A DNA stretch of 11,689 nucleotides from Hydrogenophaga sp. (GTDB lineage: Bacteria; Pseudomonadota; Gammaproteobacteria; Burkholderiales; Burkholderiaceae_C): positions 1 to 11,689 of the forward strand of contig JAUXXN010000142.1 in NCBI GenBank assembly GCA_030684755.1, read 5' to 3'. Shown piece after piece: positions 1,423 to 2,158 of the stretch (within the stretch, counting starts at the first letter, position 1; every line of letters starts with the position of its first letter). The position numbers and the translations under genes are program-made. The notes under the pieces are model-generated. The model saw only the letters and a list, made by a program, of their open reading frames with translations. It was not told where the DNA came from and did no database searches.

Positions 1423-1445
1423 GGCCTCCCTCGGGAGGCCTTTTT
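1423..1445 (+). terminator. Rho-independent terminator of the lipoprotein gene; target of the adjacent intron
   Basis: GGCCTCCC (1423-1430) and GGGAGGCC (1433-1440) form a perfect inverted repeat, followed by TTTTT (1441-1445). This is a classic intrinsic terminator 41 bases after the lipoprotein stop codon. The group II intron begins three bases after the T run, the kind of site that group IIC introns select. Confidence 0.92.
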
Positions 1446-1859
1446 CATGTGCGCCCAGCATGGGCACACTCCTGCGGGTTGCCAAGTCCCGCAGCAAGTT
1501 GACCAAGACGAGCGAAGCGAAGCGCAACTGCACGAGGGCGACCGGGTGTGGGGGAAGCGTGGAGCGTAAATCATGAGCCGATGGACAAGAACCACATAGA
1601 AGGCGTTGCCGATCAGGGCGAGCGGGCCATAAACCGCAAAGCTCTTTTGGTCAAAGATCAGGCGGCGTAAATGAGGCGGCAAGTGTGATGAAGGAGTGCG
1701 TTCTTACCTGGGGAGATCTTGCCTTGCGCCTGAAAACGAAGTTTCTGCGAAGCAAAAGGGCGACGGTTTTGCCGGAGCGAGAAGTCAGCAAAGACCGTAG
1801 TAGCAGGAGCCGGGGCCGATGAGGCCACAAGGCAAGAGTGAAGGGCTGAACGAGAGTGA

Positions 1860-2120
1860 GTGAACGAGGACAAGGGGAGGCACAAGGCCATGCGTCAGAT
1901 GCCGGATTCATCCGGGCGGGTGAGCGTAGCGCACGGTGAAGCTGTGCGTGATCTCACCAGCGACGAAGCCTGCGGCCCGCTCCTTGAGCACCCGGGCACA
2001 GGGTCGGCAAAGCAGATGGCGGGCACCGGTGGCCTGCTGGAGGCGGCGCTGACGAGACAGATGGTCCTGACCTCAAACTCTCGAACCGCCCGGTGCGGAC
2101 CCGCATGCCGGGTGGTGTGA
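1860..2120 (+). pseudogene. ltrA: Truncated group II intron reverse transcriptase/maturase (N-terminal remnant)
   Basis: A frame starting at GTG 1860 encodes 86 residues. Roughly the first 68 (RQMPDSSGRVSVAHGEA... to GGLLEAALTRQM) resemble the N-terminal segment that leads into the RT-0 region of intron-encoded reverse transcriptases. At about 2060-2070 the reading frame jumps into sequence normally found between the end of the protein gene and domain V (TCCTGACCTCAAACT), and it ends by reading through domain V to TGA at 2118-2120. The catalytic fingers/palm (including the YxDD box), the maturase domain X and any DNA-binding part are missing. The lost segment should be around 1.1-1.3 kb if the parent had a typical size; that is an estimate. 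A single internal deletion explains this better than gradual decay, because both flanks look intact. Confidence 0.7.
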
Positions 2121-2158
2121 CAGGGGTGCAGCCGATAATGGCTGCCCCCTATGCCGAT
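2085..2158 (+). ncRNA. Group II intron domains V and VI (catalytic core and branch-point helix)
   Basis: Domain V is 2085-2116 (32 nt). It folds into a 9-bp lower helix (ACCGCCCGG with CCGGGTGGT), a 2-nt bulge (T2106, G2107), a 4-bp upper helix and a 4-nt loop. The catalytic triad is CGC (2087-2089), with its G in a G-U wobble. Domain VI follows: GGGG (2123-2126) pairs with CCCC (2146-2149), and GCAGCC (2128-2133) with GGCTGC (2140-2145), closed by a 6-nt loop. A2151 lies 7 nt before the 3' end, the usual branch-point distance. All hallmark features are intact, so the ribozyme core shows no decay. Confidence 0.88.

Follow-up and report, generated by a model that had tools for sequence, protein, structure and literature searches.

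Is the intron that lies behind a terminator in a Hydrogenophaga sp. genome, and that lacks nearly all of its reverse transcriptase (RT), a ribozyme kept mobile by the protein of another intron, or the relic of an intron that once encoded its own? The stretch analysed, referred to here as the window, comprises 11,689 nt read on the forward strand (GCA_030684755.1, contig JAUXXN010000142.1), and a sequence-only reading of it had put the intron forward as a candidate non-autonomous mobile ribozyme. Bacterial class C introns sit behind intrinsic terminators, according to PMC4424553, which regards introns without an open reading frame (ORF-less introns) as a rarity among bacteria that has lost mobility, with only splicing left. 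In PMC2882425 the ORF-less introns of Thermosynechococcus elongatus are moved in trans by 'driver' RTs, and the action of an RT on a foreign ribozyme is proposed as a step on the way from group II to spliceosomal introns. A genome survey counts 888 of 13,041 bacterial introns as being without an RT (PMC8919778), and in a phage survey help in trans is raised as a speculation (PMC12350094). A literature search of open-licence papers found neither a report of trans movement of class C introns nor any account of an ORF-less class C lineage that spreads. To our knowledge, the T. elongatus introns are not of class C and terminators are not their target.

The element is assigned to class C (IIC) of the group II introns, with exact ends (Table 1). 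Its termini, GTGCGCCCAGC at the 5′ end and CCCCCTATGCCGAT at the 3′ end, are common to the full-length introns G029a-d, G047 and G032 of other genus genomes, which have differing flanks, and both the 5′ GUGCG end and the class C 3′ end are present as in these RT-bearing relatives. The Rfam covariance model for domain I scores 95.1 bits in the window against a gathering threshold of 32. The sole match for domains II-IV, to RF01998, lies below its threshold (23.6 bits against 35). The complete domain V that the sequence-only reading described, with its CGC triad and two-nucleotide bulge, is borne out by the consensus fold, which gives 13 pairs, a 4-nt loop and the bulge AT, and by its letters, which are identical to those of the RT-bearing G047 and G032. 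Also as described, domain VI has a bulged adenine, A2151, eight bases before the 3′ end of the intron, with one basal pair broken, and both domains align base by base with RT-bearing relatives. The covariance check suggested alongside that description succeeded for domain I and failed for domain V, as the Rfam domain V/VI model (RF00029) did not report the window intron; the alignment and the fold do show domain V, and this model is uninformative as a test for it here. The introns of the PMC8919778 survey resemble the window copy in having the RNA domains without an RT and the survey starts from the Rfam domain V/VI model with tuned parameters, whereas at the settings used here the model omits the window copy.

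Table 1. Features of the window intron and its insertion site (positions in the window), and members of the separate ORF-less IIC lineage.
Feature	Position	Strand	Length	Evidence or note
Intrinsic terminator with stem-loop 1423-1440 and T run 1441-1445, plus CAT ahead of the intron; target site of class C type	1423..1448	+		Terminator scan; same layout in relatives' flanks
ORF-deleted group IIC intron, whole element	1449..2158	+	710 nt	Rfam, genus search, alignment with relatives
Domain I core, Rfam group-II-D1D4-3 (RF02001)	1532..1703	+		95.1 bits, E 9.6e-19
Domains II/III to start of IV (RF01998, sub-threshold)	1752..1846	+		23.6 bits; aligned to RT-bearing relatives
RT gene remnant, 57 N-terminal codons, in 86-aa frame 1860-2120	1890..2060	+		Translation, alignment
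Junction of the deletion; RT shorter by 1,195 nt than in G029a and G047	2059..2068	+		Alignment
Domain V: CGC triad 2087-2089, 2-nt bulge 2105-2106	2085..2116	+		Alignment, consensus fold
Domain VI, candidate branch A2151; basal pair A2120-C2154 broken	2118..2156	+		Consensus fold
Cupriavidus campinensis plasmid			648 nt	ORF-less lineage
Rhizobium CIAT894 plasmid			629 nt	ORF-less lineage
Rhizobium C104 plasmid			623 nt	ORF-less lineage
G416 (window's family)			673 nt	ORF-less lineage
G039 (window's genus)			687 nt	ORF-less lineage
Zoogloea genome G827			653 nt	ORF-less lineage
G837			628 nt	ORF-less lineage
G325				ORF-less lineage; degraded

Matches to the window intron are present in 15 of the 67 genus genomes, its own genome counted. 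The search for full-length relatives with the same ends, which the sequence-only reading had called for, yielded four copies in G029 and one each in G047 and G032, of 1,879-1,896 nt, and the three that were translated (G029a, G047 and G032) have RT open frames of 461-472 aa. Positions 1-613 and 616-710 of the window intron match G029a and G047, and the segment absent between them is RT. The class C RT/maturase of domain IV is therefore absent apart from the 57 N-terminal codons (our own count) that remain within the 86-aa frame, and the claim that nearly all of the RT had been lost was correct. Three shared bases (AGA) are read from the alignment at the junction, which could have come from a deletion between short repeats.

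Loss of this kind is not confined to the window. Among the 15 two-ended copies chosen for extraction in the genus, further copies sitting at contig ends, six are full length and nine, including that of the window, are shortened to 135-816 nt; the flanks of the 15 look terminator-like by eye, and the shortened copies have differing deletions when placed on the full-length references. The 607-nt G029s is 99.4-99.8% identical, outside its deletion, to the full-length G029a of the same genome. In a GTDB scan for the 17-base 5′ end, 15 of at least 119 loci have a recognised 3′ end, eight of them full length and seven shortened; the 104 loci left out of this count, in which the 3′ end was unrecognised, often run off a contig or record or belong to a different class C type, and full-length copies are undercounted since L039, L041 and L133, with a nearly whole RT, are among them. 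For L067, L072 and L144 the profile matched only in part, and the lengths given stop where that match does. In these small samples 9 of 15 copies in the genus and 7 of 15 GTDB pattern loci are shortened, which suggests that such copies are common in class C. Internal deletions that leave both ends in place are thus frequent, and in this respect the window copy is nothing unusual. The nearest lookalike of the window intron among the matches listed is a 709-nt element in G089, from another genus, which matches positions 1-710 contiguously. Descent of the two from a shared ORF-less ancestor was considered and rejected because their junctions differ on both sides, though a two-step route could still connect them. 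A class C intron of Clostridium magnum (L072 from 5223), cut down to about 0.8 kb with some of its RT left and with a 3′ end that only partly matched the profile, suggests that internal deletion has also taken place in the Firmicutes. A Polaromonas JS666 plasmid (L175 757-4471) carries two full-length IIC introns head to tail with zero bases between them.

The catalytic RNA had been described as looking intact, and for the helices outside domain V this has to be corrected. A consensus structure drawn from 13 RT-bearing introns, with 106 pairs in domains I-III and 29 in domains V-VI, was applied to 21 introns. The window intron keeps 97 of the 106 pairs in domains I-III, the lowest count of the 21; the 13 RT-bearing introns keep 100-106 and the 7 other ORF-less introns 100-105, the Zoogloea ORF-less intron discussed below being at 105. 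Put differently, nine pairs are broken in the window intron and six in the next-worst ones, a modest gap. Drawing the structure from full-length introns is a bias in their favour, but the window intron is still the lowest when each full-length intron is left out of its own structure. In domains V-VI it retains 28 of the 29 pairs, with domain V itself intact, and as two RT-bearing introns kept fewer (24 in ZgF and 25 in L094) these domains give no mark of decay. Relative to G029a, the nearest full-length relative, 43 changes at paired sites have resulted in the nine broken pairs, whereas random placement of the same changes breaks a mean of 20.6, with none of 1,000 trials giving as few as nine. 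This pattern reads as past constraint followed by decay.

Just upstream, the stem and T run of the terminator are followed by CAT and then by the start of the intron, so that the insertion three bases past the T run is as had been claimed, and this arrangement is recurrent in relatives. The terminator scan finds one such site against 1.4 in shuffled sequence, and the call is therefore based on the exact position and on the recurrence in relatives' flanks as read by eye, not on the scan. The terminator belongs to a lipoprotein-like gene and the end of parB lies farther along. In the nearest relative, G061, the lipoprotein gene (58% identity over the last 93 residues) is followed by one further gene and then parB, with no intron; a base-exact empty site was not found, and G061 is without a matching terminator directly behind its lipoprotein gene. 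No promoter-like site is seen in the window between 1100 and 2500. Between the intron and the end of parB, at 2241-2386, is one copy of an imperfect palindrome, some 150-170 nt long, that is dispersed; other copies, with ends like TCAGAGGCTGAGAG...CTCTCAGCCTCTCAG, are found in the same genome and in many congeners. It is predicted to fold as one long hairpin and looks like a small non-autonomous repeat.

Within its own genome, a 689-contig assembly that is 82.6% complete, no second copy of the window intron was found. The search for further short copies that the sequence-only reading had proposed gave three other pieces there: C470 (L002), degraded, with 303 nt and a decayed 3′ end; C230 (L003), a 5′ fragment of 134 nt; and C485 (L004), 95 nt lying against the edge of a contig. 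Each lies behind its own terminator-like hairpin. The C485 piece is 97% identical to an RT-bearing intron, which hints at an unassembled RT-bearing helper in this genome; no match to RVT_1 was found in the 82.6% of it that is assembled. A match to RF00029 on C214 (L006 1501-1570), at 33.4 bits below the gathering threshold of 40, was read as sequence and may be what is left of the 3′ part of a further group II intron. In the window's family, an RT-bearing intron of G416 (C118) has domains V-VI that are 98% identical to those of the window intron. The junction of the window copy does not occur elsewhere among the matches listed from 67 and 399 genomes, the only other junction-spanning match being that of G089 with its different junction; as eight candidates per genome were scored in the 67-genome search and two in the 399-genome search, copy counts are lower bounds. 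The window copy thus stands at a single site, no sign was found of its having moved after RT loss, and the description of it as a candidate mobile ribozyme is not upheld. The idea behind that description is unsupported for this copy and gains support in principle from another lineage, which in a Zoogloea genome has eight copies at six loci.

The introns of that lineage, found on Rhizobium and Cupriavidus plasmids, in Comamonadaceae and in Zoogloea, are ORF-less, about 620-690 nt long, and align end to end through a domain IV that is free of RT. The window copy was considered as a member and excluded, having an RT N-terminal remnant and being without the lineage's domain IV. Of 72,556 plasmid records three match the domain IV segment, those of Cupriavidus campinensis, Rhizobium CIAT894 and Rhizobium C104. 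In 16 of the 399 family genomes a match reaches E <= 0.01: that of G416 covers the whole segment and those of G215, G401 and G325 part of it, and the remaining 12 are at chance level. The fetched stretches of G215 and G401 hold no RT. There were no matches in 369 class-level genomes, a sample without a known positive in which at most two candidates were scored per genome, and none in phage records at E 1e-5. The two Rhizobium copies agree at 552 of 620 aligned bases (89%), and their flanks have nothing in common across 1 kb on the upstream side and the available 136 bases on the downstream side. In G862, from the family of the Zoogloea genome, the first 78 bases of the lineage domain IV are found, 90% identical, directly before an RT. 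This arrangement argues against a domain IV entirely alien to RT-bearing introns, and the G862 intron may represent the RT-bearing parent type of the lineage. About 1.4 kb of other sequence interrupts the domain II/III region of the G862:C217 intron (L263 1-2829) at position 317 of the element.

The Zoogloea genome (MAG Aved_18-Q3-R54-62_BAT3C.309, loci L247-L252) holds its eight ORF-less copies, each of about 653 nt, at six loci. Four copies from three loci are identical and the other pairs differ at 7-51 alignment columns, the assigned ends of three copies being off by 1-2 bases. The 600-nt flanks of the six ORF-less and two full-length loci are unrelated, save that an ORF-less locus and a full-length one share a weak match of 41 bases, and a separate hairpin stands just upstream of each of the eight; in contrast to the single window copy, the ORF-less form thus recurs here at unrelated sites. 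Over the first 326-327 nt of the ORF-less form, four full-length copies of this genome match it at 90.9-96.6% identity, and over its last 89 nt at 90%; a fifth is more distant. An RT-length open frame is seen in three of the five (Zc3F, ZgF and ZiF); it is interrupted in Zf2F and ZhF, through either decay or sequencing error. At two loci ORF-less copies lie head to tail with a full-length one, and at one locus two ORF-less copies are in tandem. Evidently the ORF-less form has copied itself around this genome, and the simplest account is that protein from the full-length introns probably drove the copying.

For the window copy it seems quite probable that it is an immobile, decaying deletion derivative of an RT-bearing IIC intron; what kind of element it is can be read directly from its sequence, and its activity appears to have been lost. 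An RT-bearing class C intron of the type found in the genus would have inserted behind the terminator of the lipoprotein-like gene, presumably by reverse splicing as is expected of this intron family. An internal deletion, possibly between short repeats, would have taken out the 1,195 nt of RT while both intron ends were kept, and a deletion before, during or after insertion would be compatible with what is seen. Without its own RT/maturase, any splicing or movement of the copy would need the protein of another intron. Breaks have started to accumulate in its helices, which makes an immobile, decaying remnant the most likely reading, although, with domain V intact and the ends exact, residual activity is possible. 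Further points against this reading are the apparent movement of ORF-less IIC introns elsewhere, in Zoogloea, the small margin between nine broken pairs and six, domains V-VI without a mark of decay, the helper hinted at by C485 and the lack of a base-exact empty site. The apparent movement in Zoogloea would favour a live non-autonomous element, deleted first and then spliced or moved to this site in trans by the RT of another intron, and the exact ends, the intact domain V, the retention of most pairs, the related RT-bearing intron of G416 and the one that its own genome may have (C485) would all be in keeping with this. Such an element is nevertheless unlikely, as the intron has one copy, no same-junction match among those listed (with eight or two candidates scored per genome), the lowest domain I-III pair count of the 21 introns, and no RVT_1 match in an assembly that is 82.6% complete.

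It is very improbable that the intron is an artefact, in which a fragmented metagenome assembly merged the reads of several introns and lost the RT segment. Introns are repeats, the assembly has 689 contigs and is 82.6% complete, and other intron pieces do lie at contig ends; but identity to the best full match is 82.6% over the first 613 bases, and among the shorter pieces listed the closest ones attain 93%, from which the window intron is no plain chimera of the relatives compared, and the same kind of internal deletion is found on long contigs elsewhere, such as C1 of G029 at 4.4 Mb. Marginally less probable again is a domesticated RNA with a host function behind the terminator, for instance a stable non-coding RNA. 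The RT-bearing ancestor explains the constraint that might otherwise speak for such a function, namely that fewer pairs are broken than random change gives, and both the absence of an intron between the lipoprotein gene and parB in G061 and the absence of a promoter-like site in 1100-2500 argue against it.

Considered as a decaying derivative, the window copy is like the class C introns behind terminators, as these are described in PMC4424553, in its ends, domain I, domain V and terminator target, and unlike them in having no RT gene and partly decayed helices. It shares with the T. elongatus introns, as PMC2882425 describes them, a ribozyme without an ORF, but not a sign of spread; the Zoogloea lineage, like T. 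elongatus, has identical copies beside related full-length introns. Class C ends, terminators and the lack of an RT are common to the window copy and the ORF-less IIC lineage, whereas the lineage has its own domain IV in which the RT remnant of the window is missing, is multi-copy in Zoogloea and has a separate origin. It is probable that class C introns repeatedly yield ORF-less derivatives and that at least one of these has become a lasting non-autonomous retroelement lineage, standing to RT-bearing introns much as a SINE does to a LINE. Its members, about 620-690 nt in length, carry a domain IV of their own instead of the RT, occur in both Alpha- and Betaproteobacteria and would be multiplying, in part as tandem copies, behind terminators in Zoogloea; the window copy would be a separate, stalled start in the same direction. 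The window element belongs to an already known kind, and a relic is the most likely reading of it; the suggestion of a non-autonomous mobile ribozyme suits its cousins but is not supported for the copy itself. Movement of the ORF-less lineage would provide natural pairs of donor and helper with which to ask how the RT of a group II intron comes to recognise a ribozyme other than its own; the window copy itself is probably just a relic that led to these cousins. An additional ORF-less IIC intron, of 476-483 nt, lies on an Escherichia coli IncY plasmid with phage genes (L200 3001-3483) and is listed in 35 plasmid records, 34 from E. coli and one from Klebsiella; the one copy that was read has changes in the 5′ strand of its domain V.
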